A stretch of DNA of 34,974 nucleotides from contig NZ_CABFVA020000110.1 in the NCBI RefSeq assembly GCF_902143375.2, positions 1 to 34,974 on the forward strand, written 5' to 3'. A program made the translations under genes and the position numbers. The notes below the pieces were generated by a model. It was not told the DNA's origin, ran no database searches, and saw only the letters and a list, made by a program, of their open reading frames with translations. The stretch comes from Methylacidimicrobium tartarophylax (GTDB taxonomy: Bacteria; Verrucomicrobiota; Verrucomicrobiia; Methylacidiphilales; Methylacidiphilaceae). Below, piece after piece: positions 21,339 to 34,606 of the stretch. Within the stretch, counting starts at the first letter, position 1. Each line of letters opens with the position of its first letter.

Positions 21339-22021
21339 TCACTCGCCCCAGATTCGCCGATCGAGCGAGCGAAAGCCGATCGCCTCGGCCAAGTCTTCTT
21401 CCCGCAACTCTCCTCGGCCGGCCAGATCGGCGATGGTCCGGGCCACCTTGAGGATCCGGTGAAAGGCTCGCGCCGAAAGACCGAGCTCCGAGAGGGCGGT
21501 GGCAAGGAAGTTTCCACACGCGGGGGAAAGGATACAGAAGCGCGCGATCTCCCGAGGGCCCATTCGGGCGTTGTTGTGGATCTTGCGCCGCCCCGACGCC
21601 AATCTTTGGGCCTGACTCGCACGCGCCTGTTCGACCCGGGACCGGATCGCCGCCGAGCTTTCTGCCGATTCCGATTGAAGGAGAAGCTGCCGGTCGACCG
21701 CAGGCACCTCGACGTGAAGATCGATGCGGTCCAGGAGCGGACCCGAGATCCGGTTGAGATAGCGGCGCATGGCCGCCGGGGTGCATTTCCCTCGGGCGGC
21801 GTCATCGAAACCGCCGGTCGGAGAGGGATTCATGGCTGCTACGAGCATAAAGCTGGCGGGAAAGGTAACGGTGCCCGCAGCGCGCGATAGGGTGAGCCTC
21901 CCGTCCTCCAACGGCTGCCGGAGCGCCTCAAGAGCATTTCTGCCGAATTCAGGAAGCTCGTCCAGGAAGAGAACCCCATGGTGAGCCAGGCTGACCTCCC
22001 CGGGCAAGAGGCGGGGCCCCC
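21339..22021 (-). pseudogene. comM: comM (YifB), 3' half only, interrupted by the transposon
   Basis: About 227 C-terminal residues of ComM, a hexameric AAA+ helicase-like protein that aids branch migration in natural transformation; the family is about 500 residues. The remaining part starts at RGPRLLPGEVSLAHHG and includes Walker B VLFLDELPEFGRNALEALRQPLEDG, the AAMNPSPTGGFDD segment, RYLNRISGPLLDRIDLHVEVPAV and the C-terminal helical region to RIWGE. The N-terminal domain and Walker A are missing because the transposon end begins at 22022. The missing half should lie beyond the far end of the element, outside this window. The first codons of the open frame (MIAKND) are transposon sequence. 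Confidence 0.9.
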
Positions 22022-22046
22022 TGTCATTTTTGGCAATCACTGCAAC
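22022..22046 (+). repeat. Transposon left terminus with TnsB-binding site 1
   Basis: TGTCA terminus followed by GCAATCACTGCAAC at 22033-22046, the first of four similar motifs. Its position at the comM junction marks it as the outermost transposase site. Confidence 0.75.
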
Positions 22047-22088
22047 TGGATGTGCGCCATTACCAGGGGCATGCCAAAAAAGAAGCTA

Positions 22089-22103
22089 GCAATCGATGCA
22101 ACG
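22089..22103 (+). repeat. TnsB-binding site 2 (presumed)
   Basis: GCAATCGATGCAACG, 56 bp inward of site 1, same orientation. Differs from site 4 at two bases. Confidence 0.7.
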
Positions 22104-22112
22104 AAAATAATA

Positions 22113-22127
22113 GGAATCGGTGCAACG
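22113..22127 (+). repeat. TnsB-binding site 3 (presumed), upstream of the tnsA start
   Basis: GGAATCGGTGCAACG, 24 bp after site 2. It lies 10 bp before the ATG of tnsA, so transposase binding here could block tns expression (autoregulation, as in Tn7); this is inference. Confidence 0.65.
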
Positions 22128-22137
22128 CAATCCGAAA

Positions 22138-22830
22138 ATGGATAGCAATGGCTGCAACGCCGTTCGTCCGGTGCAGGCGCGCCGAATCGGTCCAGCCCGA
22201 AGGAGCGTTGCGGGCATCTACGCTTTTCGCGGCAAGAAGGCGATTCCCTACGAATCGACCCTGGAACGCGACTTTCTCATCCGATGCGAATTCTCCCTTG
22301 CCGTGGTCGATGCAATCCCCCAACCAGTCCAGATCCCCTTCGTCTCCGGCGGCAGATCCTACGTCTATACGCCTGACTTCCTCATTTACTATCAGTGTGT
22401 CGGCCAAATCTCTCCTGGTGGCCCTCGTCCGTCGCTGATCGAGGTCAAGCCGGAGGGGGAATGGCGAAAGCACTGGCGCCGCTGGCTTCCGAAATGGAAG
22501 GCGGCCTACCGGTATGCCAGAGGGCAGGGCTGGGAGTTTCGCATTCACGACGAAAGCCGGATCCGGGATCAAACCTTGCGGAACATCCGTTTCCTGGAGC
22601 GATACAAGCGGATGAGGTTCCCTCCCAAGGAAAGTTGCCTGGTGTTGGAGGGTGTTCGGGAAGCGGGGGGAGCGGCCTTCCGGGACGTCCTGGCGCGTCA
22701 ATTCCCTAGGCTGTCGCGCGTGGAAGGCGCCGCTCGCATCTGGCATCTGCTCGCAACCCGCCAGCTCGACTGCGACATCGGCAGGCCACTCGGCGATTTC
22801 ACTGAACTATGGGTTCCTGGCGATGAGTGA
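22138..22830 (+). CDS. tnsA: TnsA-like transposon endonuclease
   Basis: 230 residues from ATG 22138; a GTG at 22120 inside binding site 3 is an alternative, and neither has a clear Shine-Dalgarno. TnsA cuts the 5' strands at transposon ends, giving cut-and-paste movement together with TnsB. The restriction-enzyme-like catalytic residues are present: Glu43 in YESTLERDFL, Asp80 in YTPDF, and Glu102-Val-Lys104 in SLIEVKPEG. The C-terminal half matches the winged-helix region that contacts TnsC (SCLVLEGVREAGGAAFRDVLARQ, IWHLLATRQLDCDIGRPL). It corresponds to TniC in Tn6022 naming. The stop lies 8 bp inside tnsB. Confidence 0.88.
   Translation: MDSNGCNAVRPVQARRIGPARRSVAGIYAFRGKKAIPYESTLERDFLIRCEFSLAVVDAIPQPVQIPFVSGGRSYVYTPDFLIYYQCVGQISPGGPRPSLIEVKPEGEWRKHWRRWLPKWKAAYRYARGQGWEFRIHDESRIRDQTLRNIRFLERYKRMRFPPKESCLVLEGVREAGGAAFRDVLARQFPRLSRVEGAARIWHLLATRQLDCDIGRPLGDFTELWVPGDE
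22145..22159 (+). repeat. TnsB-binding site 4 (presumed), inside tnsA
   Basis: GCAATGGCTGCAACG, 32 bp after site 3 and within the first codons of tnsA. The N-terminal residues of TnsA (MDSNGCNAV) are therefore dictated by the binding site. Confidence 0.65.
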
Positions 22831-24736
22831 CGAGAACAAGAGCGGAGTTCCCAGTCGGGGCATTCCGTCCGATCGGAGGAACATCTGTCTCCGCGAGGGG
22901 GAATTCGTGCAGGTTGAAAACGCGGTCTATCAGATCGAAAAGGTTTTGGATTTCAAGTCGGTCGTCGGTGTCGACGTAAAGAGCGGACGCAGCTCCCTGC
23001 TTCGCGTAGGCGAACTACGTCCGATGGACTCTGGCCCGATGCCGCCCGTCCCCGACTTGTTGGAGATCATGGAGGAGGAGTGGCGGATCGCCCAGGAACG
23101 ATTCAATGCCATTCGTCCATTCGTCGATTGCCACAGGATCGGGCGAAGCGAGGTGGAAAACAGGGCGAAAGATCTCGGCGTGGACCCCGTAACGATCTAC
23201 CGCTGGCTGCGGCGTTACCGGGCGCAGGGCCGGTTAACGGCCCTCATTCCGATGAAGAGCGGATGGAGGAGAGGAAGAAGTCGGATTCCCAAAGACGCCG
23301 ATGGGGTCATTCAGGAGGTAATCCGAGATTTCTATCTGTCGCCGCAACGGCCGACGGCCCAGAAAACCGTCGACGAGGTCCGCCGCCGTTGCTGGGAGCG
23401 AGGAGTGAGTCCGCCATCGCCTTCCACCGTTCGCGCCAGGATCGCCGGGATTCCGGAAAGGGAACGTCTCAGGAGGCGCGGCTTCCGGGAGAGGGCGCGG
23501 AACAAGTTCCGGCCTGCCGCCGGTAGCTTTCCGAACGCCGACTTTCCGCTCTCGGTTGTGCAGATCGACCACACGCCCGCGGACATCGCCCTGGTGGACG
23601 ACCTCTACCGGAAGCCGATAGGCCGTCCCTGGATCACCCTGGCGGTGGACGTGTTCAGCCGGGTGGTAACTGGCTATTATCTATCCTTCGATCCGCCGTC
23701 CGAAACGTCGGTCGCCCTGTGCGTGGCGCATTCCATTCTCCCGAAGGAGGAGTGGCTTCTGGCGCATGGGGTGAAGAGCAGCTGGCCGGTCTGGGGCTAT
23801 CCGAAGACGATCCACGTCGACAACGGCGCGGACTTCCGCTCCGACGACTTCAAGAACGCTTGCCTGGACAACGGCATCAATCTGGAGTTCCGGCCCGTGA
23901 AACGGCCGAACTTCGGCGGCCACATCGAGCGACTCTTCGGCACGCTCCTCGAGGAAATCCACCACTTGCCCGGAACCACGTTTTCGTCCGTCGCGGAGAG
24001 GGACGAGCACGACCCGGAGAAGACTGCGGCGATGACCAAGACCGAATTCGAGGAGTGGCTGGTCCGGATCATCTGCGAGGTTTACCACCAGCGCATCCAT
24101 TCCGAGATCGGCATGACGCCCCTGCGCAAGTGGGAGATCGGGATCTTCGGAACTGGCGGAGTTCCCGGCATCGGCGTTCCTCTGCGTCCCGCCGATCCGA
24201 TGAAGCTGCTGCTGGACTTCCTGCCGTCCTTCCGGCGCACCGTGCAGGCGTTTGGGGTGTCGATCGATGGCTTGACCTATTACGCGGAGGTGCTGCGCCC
24301 TTGGATCAACGCTACGGATCCGATGACCAAGAGAAAGCGGGAGTTCATCTTCCGCCGGGATCCGCGCGACATCAGCGTCATCTGGTTCCGCGATCCGGAG
24401 ATCAAGCAGTACTGCAAGGTTCCGTTCGCCGACCAGTCCCGGCCGCCCTTGAGCCTGTGGGAGTACCGAGAGGTGAGGCAGGAACTCCGGAAGGAGGGAA
24501 TCAGGAGCGCGAACGAGCACCAGATCTTTCGCGCCCTGACGGAACTGCGCGAGAAGGTGGCCGAGTCGCAGGAGAAGACGAAGAGGGCGCGGCGGCAGGC
24601 GCAACGGCGAAGGGAACACGAGCGGAAGGCTTCTCCGGCGGCTGCGGTCGATCCGCCAGTCAAAACGACTACCGAAGCCCTGCTCGGGGGACTGTTATCA
24701 GACGAGAACATCGAGCCCTTCGAAGACATCGCATGA
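22823..24736 (+). CDS. tnsB: TnsB-like DDE transposase
   Basis: 637 residues from ATG 22823, overlapping tnsA. TnsB binds the end repeats and joins 3' ends to target DNA. N-terminal helix-turn-helix domains are visible (ENRAKDLGVDPVTIYRWLRRYRAQGR; KTVDEVRRRC). The RNase-H-fold catalytic triad is Asp249 (VVQIDHTPADI), Asp333 (TIHVDNGADF) and Glu369 (GGHIERLFGTLLEEIHHLPG), a DD35E spacing as in TnsB/TniA/MuA. The C-terminal tail is charged and helical (RREHERKASPAA...), where TnsB normally contacts TnsC. The stop overlaps the tnsC start (ATGA). The key residues are intact, so the enzyme is probably functional. Confidence 0.95.
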   Translation: MSDENKSGVPSRGIPSDRRNICLREGEFVQVENAVYQIEKVLDFKSVVGVDVKSGRSSLLRVGELRPMDSGPMPPVPDLLEIMEEEWRIAQERFNAIRPFVDCHRIGRSEVENRAKDLGVDPVTIYRWLRRYRAQGRLTALIPMKSGWRRGRSRIPKDADGVIQEVIRDFYLSPQRPTAQKTVDEVRRRCWERGVSPPSPSTVRARIAGIPERERLRRRGFRERARNKFRPAAGSFPNADFPLSVVQIDHTPADIALVDDLYRKPIGRPWITLAVDVFSRVVTGYYLSFDPPSETSVALCVAHSILPKEEWLLAHGVKSSWPVWGYPKTIHVDNGADFRSDDFKNACLDNGINLEFRPVKRPNFGGHIERLFGTLLEEIHHLPGTTFSSVAERDEHDPEKTAAMTKTEFEEWLVRIICEVYHQRIHSEIGMTPLRKWEIGIFGTGGVPGIGVPLRPADPMKLLLDFLPSFRRTVQAFGVSIDGLTYYAEVLRPWINATDPMTKRKREFIFRRDPRDISVIWFRDPEIKQYCKVPFADQSRPPLSLWEYREVRQELRKEGIRSANEHQIFRALTELREKVAESQEKTKRARRQAQRRREHERKASPAAAVDPPVKTTTEALLGGLLSDENIEPFEDIA

Positions 24737-25623
24737 CGAACGCGGAGCATATTCATCCGGATCTTCGGCATGTTCTCGGGCTGCCGGACAAGGAGCGGAT
24801 CGCCTTTATGCGCGAACCGAGATGGGTCGGATACGAGAGGGCCGTCCGCATCCTGGACACTCTCCGGGACCTCATGAACCAGCCACCCCGGCCCCGGATG
24901 CAGAGCCTGCTGATCGTCGGAGAGCCGAATAACGGCAAGACGACCATCATCAGAAGGTTCCAGGACCTTTTCGGCCGAGGCTACGTCAACGAGGATGCGG
25001 ATCCGGTCAAGCCGGTCGTCGTGGCCGAGGCGCCTCCCAGCGCCGACGAGAAAGGGCTCTATATCTCCATACTGGAGTGTTTCCACCCATCCTATCGGGC
25101 GAGTGCCCCCGCGGCGAAACTCCGCTACCAGACGACCACTTGGCTGCAAAGCTGCCACGTCCGGATCATCGTCATTGATGAGTTCCACTCGCTCTTGACT
25201 GGCTCCTCCCGCGAGCAGAGGAAAGCGATGAACGCCATCAAGTTTATCTGCAACGTGGCCGCCGTCCCCATTATCGGTGTCGGCACGCGGGAGGCCGTGC
25301 GCGTGCTGCACACAGACGAGCAGCACGCCAGCCGGTTCGACGTCGCGACCTTACCGCTGTGGGAACTGAACAAGGACTTCCAGCGCCTTCTCGCCTCCTT
25401 CGAGAAGATCCTGCCGCTGAGGAAACCCTCCGGATTGCACCGGCAGGAGCTGGCGATTCCCCTGCACGCGATCTCGGATGGAAACCTGGGAAATCTCCAT
25501 CGGCTGTTGACCGAATGCGCCGCGGAAGCCATCAAGAGCGGCAAAGAGCAGATCGACAAGCAGATCATTGAAAGCAAGGCATGGGTGCGCCCGACGAAGG
25601 GGATCCGGGAGATCGCCGCATGA
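24733..25623 (+). CDS. tnsC: TnsC/TniB-like AAA+ target-selection ATPase
   Basis: 296 residues, close to short TniB-type regulators rather than the ~555-residue TnsC of Tn7. Walker A is GEPNNGKTT (63-71), Walker B RIIVIDEFHSLL (Asp149, Glu150), with sensor region VAAVPIIGVGTREAVRVL and an arginine-containing ASRFDVATLPLW. These ATPases form filaments on DNA and link the TniQ-bound target to the transposase. The ATG overlaps the tnsB stop and the TGA overlaps the tniQ start, showing tight operon organisation. Confidence 0.93.
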   Translation: MTNAEHIHPDLRHVLGLPDKERIAFMREPRWVGYERAVRILDTLRDLMNQPPRPRMQSLLIVGEPNNGKTTIIRRFQDLFGRGYVNEDADPVKPVVVAEAPPSADEKGLYISILECFHPSYRASAPAAKLRYQTTTWLQSCHVRIIVIDEFHSLLTGSSREQRKAMNAIKFICNVAAVPIIGVGTREAVRVLHTDEQHASRFDVATLPLWELNKDFQRLLASFEKILPLRKPSGLHRQELAIPLHAISDGNLGNLHRLLTECAAEAIKSGKEQIDKQIIESKAWVRPTKGIREIAA

Positions 25624-26708
25624 TCCGCCCTTGGGGCTTTCCAATTCCGCTGCTTCCCGACGAGCTTTTCTCCTCTTGGCTGGTGCGGGCGGCGCTCGTC
25701 CAAGGATGCGATCCGCTCGTGTTGACCGGCAGCGTCTGGCCGCGCTGGAGGGTATGGACGGGCGACCCGGATCGCGGCATTGCGGCTGACCGGCTCGCGG
25801 CGCTCGCCCGGGCGTCGGGAATCGCGGCCACGGTCTTTGAGGCGGCGACGCTGCGGACGATCGCCTCGGCTCCAGCCGGAGGCTTCCCGGACGGAAAGGC
25901 GGTATGGCCGTGGGTGCTCGCCGCCGGCTCGCGGAACCGGAGGAGACGCGGCGGGCTCCAGTATTGCCCGGCCTGCCTCGCCGAGGACAAAAAGCCCTAT
26001 TACCGCCTCCGATGGCGGCTGGCCTGGCACACGGCATGCCTGCGGCACGGGCGCATCTTACGCGACTGCTGCCCGCATTGCGGCGGGACCGTCGAGCCGC
26101 ACCGGCTCTCTGCCGAGGACAGGCACCTGGCTCTCTGCGCCCGCTGCAAGGGCGACCTGCGAAAGGCGGACGAAGCGCAAGCGGACGGCGATGCGCTCGC
26201 CTTCCAGTCGGCGGCAGACGAGGCGGTGCAGCGGAGGGAAGGGATCTACGGCCAGGAGCGGATCTCCTGCGAGGAATGGTTCGCGCTGTCCCGATACTTC
26301 GTCGGGCTGTTGCGCAGGGCGGCCATGGGCAAATCGGATATTTTGAATGAAATGCTCCGGGCGTTCGATATTGACGCGGGCGATCTCGAAGCGCCGGCCA
26401 CGGGGCTCGTCCTGGAGCTTCTGCTGACCCGGGAGAGGGCGGCCCTTCTCGGCCGGGTTCGGAGGATGCTCGGTGCCGGCCCGGAGGCGTTCGGACGCGC
26501 GGCGAAGAAAGCCGGAGCGTCGGTCCAGACGCTTTGCGAGATGCGGCAGAAGCTTCCGCATTGCCTCGAAAAGGCCGTAGCCGGGTTGCCGGACCGGAGC
26601 CCGGAAAGGCTGCGCAGGAAGCGCGCGGCGACGGGGCGACCGCGTTCTCGGCGGTCGGTGGCCCGCATGTGGGCCAGGATGAGGCGAGCGATGCTCGCGG
26701 ACTCATGA
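25620..26708 (+). CDS. tniQ: TniQ-family target-selection protein
   Basis: 362 residues. The N-terminal TniQ domain opens with IPLLPDELFSSWLVRAALVQG, the family hallmark (PxxxDELLSSWLxRxA). A zinc-binding part follows: QYCPACLAEDKKPYYRLRWRLAWHTACLRHG, CCPHCGG and ALCARCKGDL. The C-terminal ~120 residues are basic and helical with many Arg/Lys, probably DNA-binding (RKRAATGRPRSRRSVARMWARMRR). TniQ/TnsD proteins recognise the attachment site; here the expected target is comM. By position it corresponds to tniD of Tn6022-type elements. The stop overlaps the start of the zinc-ribbon gene. Confidence 0.9.
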   Translation: MIRPWGFPIPLLPDELFSSWLVRAALVQGCDPLVLTGSVWPRWRVWTGDPDRGIAADRLAALARASGIAATVFEAATLRTIASAPAGGFPDGKAVWPWVLAAGSRNRRRRGGLQYCPACLAEDKKPYYRLRWRLAWHTACLRHGRILRDCCPHCGGTVEPHRLSAEDRHLALCARCKGDLRKADEAQADGDALAFQSAADEAVQRREGIYGQERISCEEWFALSRYFVGLLRRAAMGKSDILNEMLRAFDIDAGDLEAPATGLVLELLLTRERAALLGRVRRMLGAGPEAFGRAAKKAGASVQTLCEMRQKLPHCLEKAVAGLPDRSPERLRRKRAATGRPRSRRSVARMWARMRRAMLADS

Positions 26709-28123
26709 ATGCGGAGAGGACCAGGACCTGCGACGAGTGCGGCCGTCCGATGCAACGGGCGTTCCGGCGGCGCAAGGGCGTCGCGTATTGCCCCGCCTGC
26801 TATGCCCGGGTGTTCAAGCGCAGGATGTGTCCCAGATGCGGGAATTTCGCCCGGCTCCCGAAGAAGGAGCCGGAAGCGGTCTGCCGGAGATGCGAGAACG
26901 CGAAGCCGTGCTTGCGGTGCCGAAAGACCGAGTACGAAGTGGGAAAGATCACGCCCTACGGCCCCGTCTGCAAGGCCTGTTCGGTGTACTTCCGGGAACC
27001 CGAGCCCTGCGAGGCCTGCGGAAGGCCGTCGTCCAGGTTGACCCGGGTTCGACGGCTCGGCCATGGCCTGCGGCTTTGTCCCAAGTGCGCTCGCGCCGAT
27101 CACGGAACCTGCCCGGCGTGTCGCCGCCACCGGCTCTTGAGCGCCGGGCCGGACGGCAGGCTGCTCTGCCGGGTCTGCCGGGAGAAGGGGGAGATCCCTT
27201 GCCCGTCTTGCGGAAAGCCGATGCCCGCCGGAAGGGGCAAGGTCTGCGAGACGTGCTATTGGACGGACACGTGCCGCAAACGGATCCGGCTGGATCGGGC
27301 GGCGTTCTCGACGGCCGGAATGGAGAAGGATTTCGGCGAATTCGGGGAATGGCTGATCGGCGACAAGGGACCACACAAGGCCGCATTGACCGTCCATCGC
27401 TATCTCTCCTTCTTCCTGGAGATCGAGCGGGAGTGGAAGAACGTCCCGCCGTACCGGGAGTTGTTGGCACATTTCGGGGCGGAGGGGCTGCGGCGCGCAA
27501 GAATCCCGATGCGGTGGCTTCGCGAAGCGAAGGGCGTCAAGGTGGACGCGGCGGCGCGGGAAGAGGATTCGGAGCGGCGGCGAATCGAGGGGATCGTGGG
27601 GACGTTCGGCCAAGGGACGGAAGCGCATCGGATCCTGGTCGACTATGCGGGAAAGCTTATGCAGCGAGTCGAAGAAGGGAAGACCTCGTTGCGCTCGGTT
27701 CGCCTGGCGCTGACTCCGGCAGCCGCATTGCTGCGGAGGGCGGCACAGAAAGGAGGAGGGTTGCCGGACCAGACGCTTCTCGATCGTTATCTGCTTGATG
27801 CTCCGGGGCAGAAAGCGGCCGCCACGGGGTTCGCCAACTTTTTGAGGAAGACACGCAGCCTAAAACTTTCGGTGCGTACCGACGCGAAAAAGGCTAAAGA
27901 AGCGCAACGGCGCACACTGAAAAAGAAGATCGTAGCCATGGCGAGGCATCCCGAGGAGGGGGAGGATTTCATCAGGCGATGGATAGCGGCGGGGTTGGAG
28001 TATTTTCACAGTGTTAAATTCAACCGGAAGGCTCTGGAGGCTGTTTCGGCGAAGGTGGATGAAGGGGGCTTACGGGTGGTGGCAGGGGGGAGAACCTATT
28101 GGCTGCCAAATTGGCGGGAATGA
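26705..28123 (+). CDS. Multi-zinc-ribbon protein, fifth gene of the transposition operon
   Basis: 472 residues from ATG 26705, which overlaps the tniQ stop (ATGA). Residues ~9-184 contain twelve CxxC pairs (CDEC, CPAC, CPRC, CRRC, CLRC, CKAC, CEAC, CPKC, CPAC, CRVC, CPSC, CETC), enough for about six zinc ribbons in tandem. Residues ~190-472 have no Cys pairs and look helical and basic (FLRKTRSLKLSVRTDAKKAKEAQRRTLKKKIVAMARHPEEGEDFIRRWIAAGLEYF), possibly a second DNA-binding domain. I do not recognise the family. The position equals that of tniE in Tn6022-type transposons. Coupling to tniQ suggests a role in target choice or in the transposition complex; that is inference. Confidence 0.75.
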   Translation: MNAERTRTCDECGRPMQRAFRRRKGVAYCPACYARVFKRRMCPRCGNFARLPKKEPEAVCRRCENAKPCLRCRKTEYEVGKITPYGPVCKACSVYFREPEPCEACGRPSSRLTRVRRLGHGLRLCPKCARADHGTCPACRRHRLLSAGPDGRLLCRVCREKGEIPCPSCGKPMPAGRGKVCETCYWTDTCRKRIRLDRAAFSTAGMEKDFGEFGEWLIGDKGPHKAALTVHRYLSFFLEIEREWKNVPPYRELLAHFGAEGLRRARIPMRWLREAKGVKVDAAAREEDSERRRIEGIVGTFGQGTEAHRILVDYAGKLMQRVEEGKTSLRSVRLALTPAAALLRRAAQKGGGLPDQTLLDRYLLDAPGQKAAATGFANFLRKTRSLKLSVRTDAKKAKEAQRRTLKKKIVAMARHPEEGEDFIRRWIAAGLEYFHSVKFNRKALEAVSAKVDEGGLRVVAGGRTYWLPNWRE

Positions 28124-28260
28124 ACGTGCATTTTCAGAGTTCGAAGATGCCGTTCGTGGGGATTTAATCGTCCCTCGACGCACATCTGTACCGGCCTCAC
28201 ATCGCCATGATCTTTGTCTGGAACTTGCTAACGCCTGCTTGGCTAAAAAAGGTCCTAAAT

Positions 28261-28543
28261 GATGAAGCTAGCCTGCAGCAAGGCATGCCAGAGGAAGTTG
28301 CTCTCATTCGCGGGTGACTTCCGGCGCTTGCAGAGGCGGCAGAAAAGCTTCCGAGAAATTGCCGATTGGTTACGGGAGCGTGGCGTTCAAAACTCTCGCC
28401 GACTGGCGTGTTGCTTTTCTTCCGGCTCAAAGCGTATAAAGCCGACGGGTGGGTGGCTCTGCAAGGCCATCTGGCGGATGCACCAAAGAAGAAAGCGCAA
28501 GGCTCGCCATACAACTACGATCGGCTGCCGAGCGAGAGCGATT
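28261..28543 (+). pseudogene. Frameshifted small helix-turn-helix-like gene
   Basis: Protein-like sequence moves between two frames. One frame gives VLNDEASLQQGMPEEVALIRG, a TGA at 28315, then LPALAEAAEKL. A second frame gives KSFREIADWLRERGV. The first frame then resumes with KLSPTGVLLFFRLKAYKADGWVALQGHLADAPKKK and ends PYNYDRLPSESD-stop at 28543. Joined, SFREIADWLRERGV plus KLSPTGVLLFFR reads like a helix-turn-helix. The uninterrupted frame across this region is Cys/Arg/Trp-rich and looks non-coding, although it is formally joined to the methyltransferase frame. At least one stop and two frameshifts imply decay; no family recognised. The upstream boundary is uncertain. Confidence 0.5.
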
Positions 28544-28561
28544 GAATGGGGCGCCGAACGT

Positions 28562-30766
28562 TTGAGGGAGGAAGGTTTAAGCGCACTGCTCCTTCAGTTA
28601 CCCCCTCGTCTCAATCTGCCTCAAAATCATGCTTGTTGCGCCAATGGATTGGCTGAGTCCGTACCGAATGTAGAAATTCCGCAGCCGCAGCCGCTCATCT
28701 CTGCTCCTGCGCTTAGTTTGGCGATTCCGCGGCGTGGGCATGTCCTTTCGTCGGTCTCAGAATTGTTTGGCCGTCCTATTCGGGAAGCGGTTGCTATGCT
28801 TTCAGTGTCTGTGGCACGAGCAGGGGTCGCAGATGTGACGAGCGCCCTCCACTCTCTTCGTCCTTGCACGCACGAATCGCCGATCCATCGGTCCGACGAC
28901 GAGTTCGTTGCGTGGCTTATCGTCTCGATGTGGATCACAGGCGTAGCCGCCAGAGCAATACCCGTGTCCAGTTCGTTGCCGCAGGCCGAAGAATGGTTCC
29001 TAGGCAGCAAGAAAGATCATCGTCTGACGACATTGGTATCCGCTCGCTCGATCCAGGAGGCGGAGAGCGCGCTTCGGGTACGGGCGGATGCGGCAGCCTA
29101 TCTTGATCTGCTGCCTTACATCCTTGATCCCCATGGACCGGGAAGTCGCCTCAGTGTAAGGCGCGACCCTTCGACCAGGGCTGTCCGTTCGCGTAAGCGG
29201 GAAGAGGGAGTGTTCTATACCCCAGCAGATGTTGCTGACTACATGGCTAACGCCTGCGTTAGCGCCTTCGTCGGGGACATACCGACAATTTTGGATCCTG
29301 CTTGCGGGACTGGAGTTTTTCTTCGGGCCGTACTGGGCGCGTTGCGGCAGCACTATCCGGAGGAAGACGCCGTGTCGCTCGCAGCAAAGTTCTTGTTCGG
29401 AATTGATATTGATCCATTAGCGCTTGATGCAACGGCCTTCGTCCTATTGGCAGATATCTGGACATGTACGTCGGTGTCCCCCGTCGCCCTGTGGAAAAGT
29501 CTCCGCCGCCATCTCGCCTGTATCGACACCTTGCGGATTGACCCTACTAACGCTAAACCGTCAACGCTATTCCAGGAGGAATCATCACGTGTTGCCCTCT
29601 CTTCGATTTTTCCTGACCTGCCACATGGGCCAGTGATTATTCTCGGGAACCCTCCTTATGCGAATCTCGGGGTACGTTCCGACCTCCATGCACTTGAAGG
29701 CGTCTTCCGCACAATCGCTGCCAAACCGCAGCCCAATGCCGAAGTTTATCTTGCCTTTATTGAGCAGATGGTTCGGCTAGCTGATGCAAAGAATTGCGCT
29801 GGCGCGCTCGTCATCCCGCTCTCGATTGCTTGTAATGTTGGTTCCCAATTTACGTCCGCACGCCAATTGATCGCCGAAACGCCCGGTCGGTGGCGCTTCG
29901 CTTTCTTTGATAGGGAGCCTCACGCGCTTTTTGGCGAAGACGTGAAGACGAGGAATGCAATCGTGCTATGGTCCAGTAATTTGGATGATAAGAATGCGCA
30001 TCTGGAAACGGGTCCTCTGCGCAAGTGGCACGGCGACAGTCGGGCGCAAATGTTCAGGAGTCTGCGGTTTACGCGGATAAACACCGATGTTCGCAGCGGT
30101 ATCCCAAAAATCGAGGGAGATTGCCAGGCCATTGCAGTGAAGGTGCTGAGCAGCCGCTGCGATCAGCTTGAGCAGGCGCTGAAGGATATCGGTCGATGCC
30201 CCCTTGCTGCTTTGCCAAATGCAGATGACCGGACGGTGTTTGTCGGACCTACCGCTTACAACTTTCTCAACGTCTTTCTCAAACCATCGCGCAAGATATT
30301 TGGCAAAGACTCGATCCTTTCAGAGCACACCTTGCACGTCCTCACCTGCGCGTCGCGCCAAGACGCTCTTGTGGTGTTCGCAATACTTTCAAGCCATCTT
30401 GCTTTCTGGTGGTGGCATTCGCATGGCGACGGTTTTCATGTGTCACGCCGGTTTCTCTGCAACTTCCCCTTTGGTTTAGACGCTTTGAGCGGATCAGCGG
30501 CAGAAATGCTTGCGTGCGCCGGAGAGGCGCTTTGGTCAACGATCAACACCCGCCCGATCATCAGCCTCAACCGGGGGCGGACTTCGCTCGCCTTCACACC
30601 CAATGGGCATGACAGCATACGCCGTCAGATCGACCAAATACTGGCCGATCTCGCTGGCCTGCAACCCGCGTTTATCGATGATCTCCAGCAATTCACGGCG
30701 TACACCATCGCAGCGACGTGGCGCAATCAGGAAAATTCACGAATCGACGGCAAGGAGGGGGTATGA
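28562..30766 (+). CDS. N-6 adenine DNA methyltransferase (Eco57I-like)
   Basis: The methyltransferase core is clear: the substrate/SAM entry segment EEGVFYTPADVADYMANACV, motif I TILDPACGTGVFLRAVL, the acidic motif FGIDIDPLALDAT and catalytic motif IV IILGNPPYANLG. These describe a gamma-type N6-adenine methylase of a restriction-modification system. The frame is open from 28259 (835 residues), but the first ~100 residues overlap a frameshifted different gene and look non-coding. I therefore begin at TTG 28562 (734 residues); ATG 28796 is also possible. The C-terminal half (NFLNVFLKPSRKIFGKDS, AFWWWHSHGDGFHVSRRFLCNFPFG) resembles a target-recognition region. Its stop overlaps the start of the second methyltransferase. 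Confidence 0.82.
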   Translation: MREEGLSALLLQLPPRLNLPQNHACCANGLAESVPNVEIPQPQPLISAPALSLAIPRRGHVLSSVSELFGRPIREAVAMLSVSVARAGVADVTSALHSLRPCTHESPIHRSDDEFVAWLIVSMWITGVAARAIPVSSSLPQAEEWFLGSKKDHRLTTLVSARSIQEAESALRVRADAAAYLDLLPYILDPHGPGSRLSVRRDPSTRAVRSRKREEGVFYTPADVADYMANACVSAFVGDIPTILDPACGTGVFLRAVLGALRQHYPEEDAVSLAAKFLFGIDIDPLALDATAFVLLADIWTCTSVSPVALWKSLRRHLACIDTLRIDPTNAKPSTLFQEESSRVALSSIFPDLPHGPVIILGNPPYANLGVRSDLHALEGVFRTIAAKPQPNAEVYLAFIEQMVRLADAKNCAGALVIPLSIACNVGSQFTSARQLIAETPGRWRFAFFDREPHALFGEDVKTRNAIVLWSSNLDDKNAHLETGPLRKWHGDSRAQMFRSLRFTRINTDVRSGIPKIEGDCQAIAVKVLSSRCDQLEQALKDIGRCPLAALPNADDRTVFVGPTAYNFLNVFLKPSRKIFGKDSILSEHTLHVLTCASRQDALVVFAILSSHLAFWWWHSHGDGFHVSRRFLCNFPFGLDALSGSAAEMLACAGEALWSTINTRPIISLNRGRTSLAFTPNGHDSIRRQIDQILADLAGLQPAFIDDLQQFTAYTIAATWRNQENSRIDGKEGV

Positions 30767-31695
30767 CAACACAGCCAATCAGCCAGTGCATCAAGGAAAA
30801 GAGCAAGTTAACGAAGGAAGAATGGCGAGAATATACAAAAACCGTCTGGACCATAGCAAATACCAGTCGCGACGATCATCCTGCTGTTTTTCCGGAAGAG
30901 ATCCCGCTACGCCTTGCCAAACTCTTTAGCTTCTACGGCGAGACTGTTCTCGATCCTTTCGCCGGGACGGGAACAACGGCCCGTGCGGTGATCCCTCTCG
31001 GTAGGCGCGCTGTGTGCGTCGATCAGAACGACGAGTACGTCCGCATAATCCAAAACGATTGCCGCAATCTTCGCAATGGTCACGGCCCGGAGTTTGAGCC
31101 TCTCTTGGCAGTTCGGGCTAATAGCCGAAAACTCGATTTCATTGAGGAGAATTCGGTTGGCCTGGTAATCACCAGTCCGCCGTACTGGAACAAGGCCGAC
31201 TACGGGATGGGAGAGGACAATCTCGGCAACATCGCTCCGTATGGGTCCTTTCTGGCATCGACGCGCTCTGTATTTGAGGAATGCTTCCGAGTCCTCGCCC
31301 CAGGGCGCAAGATCTGCATCGTAACGGCAAACGTCAATCAGCATACGGACCATGGGCTCCTTACGTTTCCGATCGCTGCTGATTTCGCAATCCTCCTCCG
31401 CGACATCGGGTTCGTGATGATCAGCGAGATCATCTGGTCGAAGGATGGATCAGGCGGAAAATGGGGCTCGCATGGCGCGCAGCGGCCAATATTCGGCAGC
31501 TACCCGTATCCACCCAATTTCCTGTTCAAGAATGTTCACGAGTACATTCTCATTTTTGCGAAACCGCCTTTAAGCAAAACTAAAGGGCCTAAGGTGAAGC
31601 AATACAAGGATCTCATGACGGGCATGCAGCGGCTGGTTAATTCAGACGCGTTGGCCGCCGATGGTCGACTGCCGCGTCTCCCTTTACAGTTGTAG
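30763..31695 (+). CDS. Second DNA methyltransferase (DPFAGTGTT / TSPPY type)
   Basis: 310 residues from ATG 30763, with AAGGAGGGGG just upstream and overlapping the previous stop. Motif I is TVLDPFAGTGTTARAVIPLGRRAVCVDQN, motif IV VITSPPYWNKADYGMG, followed by GSFLASTRSVFEECFRVLAPGRKICIVTANVN and PYPPNFLFKNVHEYILIFAKP. Motif I precedes motif IV (gamma-like order); TSPPY is common among N4-cytosine enzymes, so the modified base is unresolved. The last ~30 residues (SDALAADGRLPRLPLQL) look atypical and the stop lies just before a dispersed repeat element, so the C-terminus may be truncated. It is probably the modification partner of the nuclease gene downstream. Confidence 0.85.
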   Translation: MTTQPISQCIKEKSKLTKEEWREYTKTVWTIANTSRDDHPAVFPEEIPLRLAKLFSFYGETVLDPFAGTGTTARAVIPLGRRAVCVDQNDEYVRIIQNDCRNLRNGHGPEFEPLLAVRANSRKLDFIEENSVGLVITSPPYWNKADYGMGEDNLGNIAPYGSFLASTRSVFEECFRVLAPGRKICIVTANVNQHTDHGLLTFPIAADFAILLRDIGFVMISEIIWSKDGSGGKWGSHGAQRPIFGSYPYPPNFLFKNVHEYILIFAKPPLSKTKGPKVKQYKDLMTGMQRLVNSDALAADGRLPRLPLQL

Positions 31696-31696
31696 C

Positions 31697-31880
31697 TAAT
31701 CTCCATGTCTCATAAAGGTTGTACACGAAGCGCGGCGAATTGGCCTGGAGGCAAGAGGGGACACAGGTGTCCCTCTGGGGTTGCATGACGACAGACTGCA
31801 AATAGGACAATCAAGCTCCAACGAAGCAGCCGGATCCGATGCGCAAGCCGCAGGACAACGCTTGTGAGACAGGCAAACTA
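31697..31880 (+). repeat. Dispersed inverted-repeat element, copy with a ~60-bp insert
   Basis: Left end ATGTCTCATAAAGGTTGTAC and right end CGCTTGTGAGACAGGCAAAC correspond to the ends of the 8647-8770 element. The interior GAAGCGCGGCGAATTGGCCT and GGAGGCAAG, then CCAACGAAGCAG, also aligns with it. Relative to that copy about 60 bp (31756-31817) are extra and include GGGGACACAGGTGTCCC, itself nearly palindromic. It separates the second methyltransferase from the nuclease gene, and the ATG at 31839 lies inside it. Confidence 0.6.
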
Positions 31881-33047
31881 AAGCGCGAGATAGCTTGGTT
31901 TTACAACCAGCCTTTAGCCATCCGGCTCGGTACTAAGTTACAGGGCGATGTGGATCGGATGGACAATGTCGGTCAATGCTGGGACACGCTCGATATTGCC
32001 GTGGCCTGGGTTCGTGAGTCCGGGATGAGACATCTCTCGGAACGGTTGGCAAGCTTTCTGCGAAACGGAGGGGAGCTCTCTGTGATCGTTGGTATCGATC
32101 TCGAGAACACGACGCGCGAGGGCTTGCAGGCGCTTCTCAACCTGGAGTGCTGCGGACAATGTGAGACGTTCGTGTACCATAATGAAGCGGGAAGTGTCTT
32201 CCACCCGAAGGTGTATCTTTTCCGCAATGAAGAGGAAGCGCGTCTCATCGTCGGATCGAACAACATTACGGAATCCGGTCTCTACGTCAATGTGGAAGCA
32301 GGCCTGCAGGTCGATGCCACAGCGGATGCAGAAGTAGTAGTCGAAGTGCAGAAAGCATTGTCCTCTTGGAAGGATACGACGAGCGGGCTGGCCAAGCGAC
32401 TGGACAAGGACTTTCTCGCCAATCTCGTGCGGGAAGGTTATGTGCCCGATGAGGCGGCAGCCAGAGAGAAAATCCGCCGTGAAAGCACCATCCGGCCGCG
32501 CAAGGGCGCGGCCGCCCTATTTGGGTCAAGGACCTTTGAGCCGCCGCCACCAATTCGCAGCGAAACTAGTCCAGTTGGTCCATCCGGTGTCCGGGCACTG
32601 CGGCCTTCCACTCCAACCCCGGTTATGTCCGCCGGGCAAATACCATCGGGAACAGTGCTATTGATGCGCCTTCGAAAGGCGTCAGCCACGGCGTCAGCCA
32701 CGGGTCGGCCAACCCAGACGCAGATTCCGTTTCGTGTGGTTAACACCTTTTTCAATGGAGCCACTGAGGTGCGAAGCATCCACTCCGGCGTCGCCCACGG
32801 CATACACGAGGCCTCGGCCCGAGGTAACCCTAATACGACCAAGCTCGAAATTCCGGAAATGCGAGATTTCGCGCAGCCCGTTGCACGCTTCGAAAAAACC
32901 TCCCAAGGAATTGTGTACGAAGCTTACGATGTAGATTCACCAAAAGGACATCAGATCATGGAGAGCCTTGAGGAAGGAAGAAATGACGGCTCAACCCAAT
33001 TGTCGATAGGAAACCCTGAACGCGCAACCTGGTGGCGCTTTATTTGA
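31839..33047 (+). CDS. PLD-fold restriction-type nuclease
   Basis: 402 residues. The phospholipase-D-type catalytic motif is FHPKVYLFRNEEEARLIVGSNNITESGLY (HxK ... GSxN), preceded by DIAVAWVRESGMRHLSERLASFLRNGGELSVIVGID. Metal-independent PLD nucleases of this kind occur as restriction endonucleases (BfiI, NgoFVII) and in defence islands. The central part has a Pro/Ser-rich linker (EPPPPIRSETSPVGPSG, RPSTPTP), and the C-terminal ~130 residues (IPFRVVNTFFNGATEVRSIHSG ... ATWWRFI) may be the DNA-recognition domain. The first ~16 residues come from the inverted-repeat element, so the native start may be lost. The two upstream methyltransferases make a restriction-modification cassette likely. 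Confidence 0.8.
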   Translation: MRKPQDNACETGKLKREIAWFYNQPLAIRLGTKLQGDVDRMDNVGQCWDTLDIAVAWVRESGMRHLSERLASFLRNGGELSVIVGIDLENTTREGLQALLNLECCGQCETFVYHNEAGSVFHPKVYLFRNEEEARLIVGSNNITESGLYVNVEAGLQVDATADAEVVVEVQKALSSWKDTTSGLAKRLDKDFLANLVREGYVPDEAAAREKIRRESTIRPRKGAAALFGSRTFEPPPPIRSETSPVGPSGVRALRPSTPTPVMSAGQIPSGTVLLMRLRKASATASATGRPTQTQIPFRVVNTFFNGATEVRSIHSGVAHGIHEASARGNPNTTKLEIPEMRDFAQPVARFEKTSQGIVYEAYDVDSPKGHQIMESLEEGRNDGSTQLSIGNPERATWWRFI

Positions 33048-33054
33048 GGATCGG

Positions 33055-33066
33055 GCTCACGTGAGC
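33055..33066. other. Perfect 12-bp palindrome downstream of the nuclease gene
   Basis: GCTCACGTGAGC, 8 bp after the nuclease stop. No T-run follows, so it is not an obvious intrinsic terminator; it may be a protein-binding site or chance. Confidence 0.3.
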
Positions 33067-33104
33067 AGTCCTGATCTTTATAGGGCTATAGCGTAGACAC
33101 ATAA

Positions 33105-33161
33105 CGGATCTTCCGCATGCGCCGTGACCAAGGTGCATCATCCATTGGAGAGGGAATCGCC
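33105..33161 (+). repeat. Direct repeat, copy 1 (about 76% identical to 34735-34791)
   Basis: Shares CTTCCGC, TGCGCCGTG, AGG, GCATC and TGG-GAGGGA in the same order and spacing with the stretch at 34735-34791. The ATG at 33117 and the first ~15 codons of the YwgA-like gene lie in it, so that N-terminus may not be native. Confidence 0.45.
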
Positions 33162-33650
33162 TCGCCCGGTAACTATTGCTCCAGGCGGAAGCACTCGGTT
33201 CGGCTGCTCATCCTGACACTGCTGGCAGAAAAGGAAAAACGGGTAAGTTGGACCGCAGTGGAGGTACCGGTGACGGCGCTGGCGAAGAATGAATTTCTTC
33301 TCCAGATGAAGGACAACGCCGCGGGTAGGCTTATCTACTACTTCATCGCCTACCATTATGGCCCGTTCGCCAAGGAACCCTACGACGATCTCCAAGCGCA
33401 ACAAGGAAAGGGCTTGGTGCGCATGGAGAGCGATCCGGAGGAGGACAAGACAAAGATCATTCTGTTCGATCCGGCGAAGGCCCAGGAGGCACTCTCCGAG
33501 ATACCCGAGGATCTTAAAAGTACTCGACAATGATCATCGATACCTACGGCAATCTCGAGGCCAACGTGCTGCTCCGGCGCTGTGTGCGAGAGGTATCCGG
33601 ACTACGCTCGCGATAGCTGGCTGAAGCGGAGGGGTCCAACTGCAGGATGA
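33117..33650 (+). pseudogene. YwgA-like gene with two compensating frameshifts
   Basis: Frame one gives residues up to EIPEDLKSTRQ-stop at 33533, containing LIYYFIAYHYGPFAKEPYDDLQAQQGKGLVRME, similar to the YGPFS-type core of YwgA/DUF4065-like proteins. The protein-like sequence continues in another frame as MIIDTYGNLEANVLLR (from 33530), then returns to frame one near 33579 as AVCERYPDYARDSWLKRRGPTAG, stopping at 33648-33650. Together IIDTYGNLEANVLL plus AVCERYPDYARDS matches the usual C-terminal pattern of this family. The restored stop overlaps the ATG of the DUF3644 gene (ATGA), showing the two were one coupled operon. Either the gene is broken or two sequence errors are present. Family assignment is moderate. 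Confidence 0.6.
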
Positions 33651-34606
33651 AGTCACACTCCCGCAAACTCCTAGACTGTTCCGTTGCTGCGATGGTGGCT
33701 GCGATTGACGTGTACAACAAACCCGATTTCCGCTATCGGGCCGAATCCTTCACAATCCTGGCTCTGAACGCCTGGGAGCTTTTGCTCAAATCCAAGTGGC
33801 TGGTGGGAAACGGGAATCGTCTTAGCAGCCTTTATGTCCGCGAAGGCGGAGGCCGCAAGCGGCCGCGCTACAAGCGAACGCGCTCAAGAAGCCCCTTCAC
33901 CCATAGCGTGGACTATCTTGCTAAGAAGCTCACAGAGATGAAGGTCATGAACGAGGCTTGTAGCAAGAATTTGGAAGCTCTTGCTGAACTTCGAAATACA
34001 GTGGTTCATTTCTACCACAAAAGCCCCCAACTTGCGGAGCGAGTTCAGGAGATCGGGATGGCGACCGTCAAGAACTTCGCCTCAGCTGCGCAGGACTGGT
34101 TCGAGGAGGATCTTTCCTGGTTCAACTTTTACCTCATGCCGCTTTCGTTTGTGACTCCGCCCTCGGCAACGGAGGTAGTCGAGCTCAATAAGGAAGAAAA
34201 GAACTTCTTACGCTATGTGAAGAGCCTTGATGATCAATATGCTGACCCCAACGCTCGGTACTCGGTATCGATCAATGTCGAGGTCCACTTCGTGCGTTCG
34301 AAGTCGGTAGCAGCAACGCCGGTTCGAGTCACAAACGATCCCACCGCCACGGAGGTGCGGCTAACCGAGGAGCAAATCAGCGAGCGATATCCGTGGGATT
34401 ACCGCAAATTGAGCGATGAGTGTCGGAAGCTCTACTCCGGCTTTAAGGTCGATCGGCGATATCACGAGCTTCGTCGTGAATTAGAGCGTGACACACGATT
34501 TGCGCATGTTCGCCGCCTCGACCCTCGAAAAGCCAAGTCATCGAAAAAGACGTTCTACAGCCCGGCAATACTGCAAGAGTTTGATAAGACGTACAAAACG
34601 ATCTGA
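33647..34606 (+). CDS. DUF3644 domain protein
   Basis: 319 residues. The N-terminal ~190 residues match DUF3644: LLDCSVAAMVAAIDVYNKPDFRYRAESFTILALNAWELLLKSKWL, then LAKKLTEMKVMNEACSKNLEALAELRNTVVHFYHKSP. The C-terminal part PWDYRKLSDECRKLYSGFKVDRRYHELRRELERD, ending KKTFYSPAILQEFDKTYKTI, resembles a helical DNA- or partner-binding module. DUF3644 proteins are frequent in defence islands but their biochemical activity is not known to me. The internal AWELLLKS and RNTVVHF motifs recall HEPN-like helical folds, which include RNases; this is a structural guess. Coupled to the YwgA-like gene by a start/stop overlap. Confidence 0.75.
   Translation: MKSHSRKLLDCSVAAMVAAIDVYNKPDFRYRAESFTILALNAWELLLKSKWLVGNGNRLSSLYVREGGGRKRPRYKRTRSRSPFTHSVDYLAKKLTEMKVMNEACSKNLEALAELRNTVVHFYHKSPQLAERVQEIGMATVKNFASAAQDWFEEDLSWFNFYLMPLSFVTPPSATEVVELNKEEKNFLRYVKSLDDQYADPNARYSVSINVEVHFVRSKSVAATPVRVTNDPTATEVRLTEEQISERYPWDYRKLSDECRKLYSGFKVDRRYHELRRELERDTRFAHVRRLDPRKAKSSKKTFYSPAILQEFDKTYKTI

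Follow-up and report, generated by a model that had tools for sequence, protein, structure and literature searches.

Which factor guides a Tn7-type transposon into comM is the question raised by the locus described here, in which a gene for a cysteine-rich protein lies directly downstream of tniQ in the window (the whole 34,974-nucleotide stretch of DNA that was analysed). The first-pass annotation, made from the sequence, regarded this protein as an undescribed target-selection factor. The epithet did not survive a homology search: over its full length the protein matches TnsF, or TniE, a factor already known from the work of Faure et al. 2023 (PMC10293859), who gave the name TnsF to orf3/tniE of Tn6022. 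The product of 26705-28123 is almost certainly TnsF, the described comM target selector of the Tn6022-like Tn7-type transposon, and what is new here is a further copy of it, in a methane-oxidising host that probably belongs to the phylum Verrucomicrobiota.

The tnsF gene and the tns operon

The features of the element are listed below; L007 denotes the locus on C132, another contig of the same genome.

21339..22021, minus strand: interrupted comM, 3' half (Pfam Mg_chelatase 7.4e-45, Mg_chelatase_C 2.7e-29)
22017..22021: GGGGG, the 5-bp target site duplication, whose second copy is at L007:649-653
22022..22160, plus strand: left (tnsA-side) element end, 5'-TGTCATTTTTGG with TGCAAC repeats at 22041, 22097, 22121 and 22153
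22120..22830 (ORF limits), plus strand: tnsA endonuclease (Pfam TnsA N and C domains)
22652..24736 (ORF limits; the start is perhaps further in), plus strand: tnsB, DDE transposase (Pfam rve, Mu-transpos_C)
24790..25623, the domain part of ORF 23719-25623, plus strand: tnsC, TniB-type AAA ATPase (Pfam TniB 6e-67)
25620..26708, plus strand: tniQ of the short type, with about 362 aa counted from the ATG at 25620 (Pfam TniQ 7.6e-23)
26705..28123, plus strand: tnsF (tniE), 472 aa, translation without a stop
28259..34606, plus strand: start of the cargo, with DNA methylases, a PLD-type nuclease and a DUF3644 gene (Pfam, PADLOC)

The start/stop coupling of the gene to tniQ that had been read from the sequence was borne out as an ATGA overlap at 26705-26708, in which the ATG of tnsF occupies 26705-26707 and the TGA of tniQ 26706-26708; tnsC and tniQ overlap likewise as ATGA at 25620-25623. 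The gene is, as proposed, the final one ahead of the cargo; the long ORF that follows begins at 28259 and encodes a DNA methylase. The encoded TnsB is 39-64% identical to other TnsB proteins, TnsC 46-70% identical to the TnsC of Tn6022-like elements, and TniQ about 30-49% identical to TniQ encoded upstream of other tnsF genes.

The about six tandem zinc ribbons ascribed to the 472-residue protein were also upheld. Residues 9-184 contain 24 cysteines arranged as 12 CxxC motifs (9,12; 29,32; 42,45; 60,63; 69,72; 89,92; 102,105; 125,128; 136,139; 155,158; 166,169; and 181,184), enough for six zinc ribbons. None of the 24 varies in alignments of 8 and then 27 homologues, so that the CxxC array is no chance pattern.

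That the ribbon protein itself is TnsE was considered and rejected, as the first-pass annotation had also held. A TnsE homologue of 590 aa is encoded by a separate gene, L007:734-2506, reading inwards at the far end of the element and opposite to the tns operon, and ORF-wide BLAST found no similarity between it and TnsF. This homologue is 48% identical to a Halomonas copy and about 26% identical to Acinetobacter copies in TnsF-holding records, and gave no TnsE-type Pfam match at E<1. The TnsE of Tn6022 has been described at the same far-end position, in divergent orientation (PMC10293859).

Element ends and insertion into comM

The 5' half of comM and the other end of the element reside on contig C132, which is not joined in the assembly to contig C110 carrying the left end. 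At both junctions (in the window and at L007:654) the element begins with TGTCATTTTTGG followed by TGCAAC repeats, and the removal of one GGGGG copy renders the comM frame open again. The Walker B codons (VLFLDE) start 14 codons (42 bp) past the insertion point, duplication excluded. The Walker B region of comM is the target of Tn6022, in which a requirement for it was shown (PMC10293859).

Relationship to the TnsF of Tn6022

TnsF of A. baumannii Tn6022 aligns with the window protein at 36-38% identity over ~97% of the query (E down to 9e-99); these figures refer to the A. baumannii copies, the experimentally tested protein being A. johnsonii AjTnsF. A translated search of plasmid records retrieved end-to-end relatives in Acinetobacter, Halomonas, Methylobacter and Pseudomonas at 36-53% identity, and among GTDB genomes the Halomonas and Alcaligenaceae copies reached 52-58%, with the Alcaligenaceae copy at up to 58%. 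Searches of Pfam and NCBIfam gave weak, sub-threshold zinc-ribbon matches and no strong family, which explains why the protein looked new. In the tree the window TnsF falls into a broad, poorly resolved group with copies from Pseudomonadota, in which neither its nearest relative nor a firm union with the TnsF of the congener G002 (see below) was recovered.

Faure et al. described TnsF as comprising multiple zinc fingers in an N-terminal region of about 199 aa, two core-binding domains and a truncated tyrosine-recombinase catalytic domain. They reported that TnsF removal impairs Tn6022 transposition and that the A. johnsonii protein binds both TniQ and a comM fragment (PMC10293859). The host group of the window TnsF is not named in that paper, and the numbering of the salt-bridge residues published there, E427/D476, fits none of the Acinetobacter TnsF copies compared. 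The present element shares with the Tn6022/AbaR-type elements of Acinetobacter a TnsF with zinc ribbons, a core-binding domain and a partial catalytic domain; in both, tnsF immediately follows a short tniQ, the insertion occupies the same comM position, the element ends start with TGT, and tnsE lies in divergent orientation at the far end. It differs in the length of TnsF (472 aa here and 498 aa in Acinetobacter, besides the modest identity given above) and in its host, here a methane oxidiser probably outside Pseudomonadota. The Tn6022-like elements of Halomonas/Vreelandella and Alcaligenaceae, with their more similar full-length TnsF, have the same operon and the same comM site but differ in host phylum and cargo.

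Predicted fold of TnsF

An AlphaFold model of the full protein, built with the alignment of 27 homologues, attained a pLDDT of 87 and shows zinc ribbons and helical domains, with a short beta sheet at the C-terminus; a model of the C-terminal half made without an alignment (pLDDT 59) was left out. The following domains were assigned.

Residues 9-184: zinc ribbons (AlphaFold model, sequence)
Residues about 182-298: helical domain at the position of the first core-binding domain, CB1 (AlphaFold model)
Residues about 302-392: CB2 core-binding domain (AlphaFold model, VIA-align)
Residues about 394-472: partial catalytic domain, pCAT (AlphaFold model, VIA-align)

Structural comparison with PDB chains by VIA-align matched residues 303-392 to the core-binding domains of tyrosine recombinases, led by 5vfz (Z 8.4) and including XerA (5hxy, Z 7.5), an integron integrase (7.3) and lambda integrase (1z19, 6.9), a Z of 7-8 being modest for a helical domain; the first ten rows were all recombinases. 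XerH (5jk0), the structure named for comparison with TnsF by Faure et al. (PMC10293859), aligns to residues 302-472 with Z 7.1 at an rmsd of 11 over 149 residues, for which reason the core-binding domain is to be taken as the solid part of the match. The helical domain at the CB1 position found cyclin-fold proteins rather than recombinases among its listed matches. Beyond residue 394 the model has two long helices, one short helix and three strands, and ends at 472; as modelled, the short C-terminal beta sheet leaves no room for the helices that bear catalytic residues, and TnsF is thus predicted to have no catalytic chamber. The likeness is one of fold: XerH, XerA and lambda integrase are recombinases, whereas TnsF is a target selector without a catalytic domain.

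The recombinase likeness stood out by VIA-align and not by plain Foldseek, which returned weak PDB matches (E above 0.05) with LIM domains at the top, and PDB sequence searches, including one with a profile, yielded chance zinc proteins and no tyrosine recombinase. The structure prediction of the protein alone that had been suggested with the first-pass annotation accordingly amends two of its statements. The basic helical C-terminus is helical in the model, but in place of merely basic helices it holds a core-binding domain followed by a catalytic domain that is truncated. The proposal that a ribbon array reads DNA is incomplete in crediting the ribbons alone, given the tyrosine-recombinase core-binding domain in the C-terminal half.

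TnsF loci in GTDB genomes

A scan of GTDB genomes found 38 TnsF loci. Orthologues are not mainly outside transposons, for tniQ lies directly upstream of tnsF in 37/37 loci with enough upstream sequence. Of the 34 loci whose sequence extends far enough past tnsA, 28 carry a comM 3' fragment beside the tnsA end; the junction falls on the same base as that of the window element except in L014 (one base shifted) and L032 (diverged end sequence). The remaining 6/34 include plasmid copies, whose location away from comM is expected from TnsE-directed transposition. The scan patterns derive from the ribbons of TnsF of the Tn7 type, so that relatives of the Tsy type are probably underrepresented. Phylum-wide, TnsF was found in 2/289 genomes, one of which holds a degraded remnant. 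One ribbon-only weak match was also recorded, in the actinobacterium Rugosimonospora africana (L052, 10001-10825), with no tns genes nearby.

All 13 genomes of the host family encode a pmoA-type protein, and the family probably comprises the acidophilic verrucomicrobial methanotrophs Methylacidimicrobium and Methylacidiphilum. Among seven congeners, comM is split only in the window genome (G000) and in G002, and is intact, with frames of 533-534 aa, in the other five. The G002 element is complete, measures 24,334 bp (L057:7930 to L056:13263) and occupies the same comM base with the duplication GAGGG. The two genomes share 59% identity in TnsF, 49% in TniQ and 80-84% in comM; because the Tns proteins are far more diverged than comM, the two insertions are likely to be independent.

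In the sister genus g2, one genome (G008) contains a degraded tnsF remnant with stops at L058:10344-10937 and is itself without a strong comM match. Four of the five genomes of that genus (G007, G008, G010 and G011) gave no strong comM (Mg_chelatase) match, and neither did G012, the lone genome of a third genus, g3; comM may have been lost in these five.

Alternative readings

The unfamiliarity of the protein by library search, its Pfam and NCBIfam matches being weak and below cut-offs, would suit a new zinc-ribbon selector, distinct from TnsF, that arrived at comM targeting independently. This is very improbable, since homology to the Acinetobacter Tn6022 TnsF runs from end to end with every cysteine kept, and gene place, fold and target are all the same; the full-length homology refutes a distinct selector. 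About equally improbable is that the protein descends from TnsF but has since taken on a different function, the comM insertion being an ancient remnant. A degraded tnsF remnant does occur in the sister genus, but here the tnsF frame is open, with its cysteines and its start/stop overlap intact, the transposase genes are open, the element ends match, and two diverged elements within the genus have inserted at an identical base.

There is scarcely any chance that the gene encodes an active recombinase that mobilises its own element rather than a Tn7-like helper. Such proteins exist: the TnsF-like protein of Tsy (ZooTsy) elements shares the ribbons and the core-binding domain and also inserts in comM, yet it has an active catalytic domain and is partnered by YRec and HTH proteins, not TnsABC-TniQ (PMC10293859). 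The window gene, by contrast, sits in a tnsA-tnsB-tnsC-tniQ operon with cargo on its other side and no adjoining YRec/HTH pair, its product stops after the short beta sheet with no room for catalytic helices, and the ends and 5-bp duplication of the element are of Tn7 type.

Proposed mechanism

With TnsF as the preferred identity, orthology, fold, gene coupling, element ends, target duplication and cross-species site identity are supported by this analysis. The need for TnsF, its binding of comM DNA and TniQ, and the Walker B requirement were shown for the Acinetobacter orthologue (PMC10293859), and we infer by analogy that the window TnsF works in the same way; the role in target selection envisaged from the sequence, reading comM and bridging to TniQ, would then hold here as it does in Tn6022. 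TnsF would bind double-stranded comM DNA around the Walker B codons, with ribbons and core-binding-like domains presumably sharing the DNA contacts, while its C-terminal partial catalytic domain would dock with the short TniQ at the C-terminal helix of the latter. The signal would pass from TniQ to TnsC and lead to the recruitment of TnsA and TnsB, and insertion would follow at one comM base, which lies about 42 bp away from the Walker B codons, and would duplicate 5 bp of the target.

Cargo and significance

The contig ends inside the cargo, whose methylases, PLD-type nuclease and DUF3644 protein look like defence genes. The DUF3644 protein (33647-34606) matches the candidate phage-defence family PDC-S19 (E 1.8e-124). 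The N6_N4 DNA methylase at 30718-31695 aligns with its Pfam profile in two stretches, the N-terminal part of the protein pairing with the C-terminal part of the profile, which suggests a permuted enzyme. On C132, a short ORF (L007:2748-3167) is weakly similar to PglZ and BrxA and is followed by a methylase-like ORF (L007:3167-4411); the two are possible remnants of a BREX-type system.

The known mechanism is unchanged by the window TnsF. As no Pfam or NCBIfam model recognises TnsF, such proteins stay annotated as hypothetical. The present copy widens the host range of comM-targeting TnsF elements and, as a diverged TnsF accompanied by its own target site, is useful for mapping the contacts with DNA and TniQ. 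It is conceivable, if somewhat doubtful, that the element entered acidophilic methanotrophs outside Pseudomonadota at least twice and that its comM contacts perhaps adapted to a distant comM; were that so, comparison with the Acinetobacter TnsF would map the recognition code.
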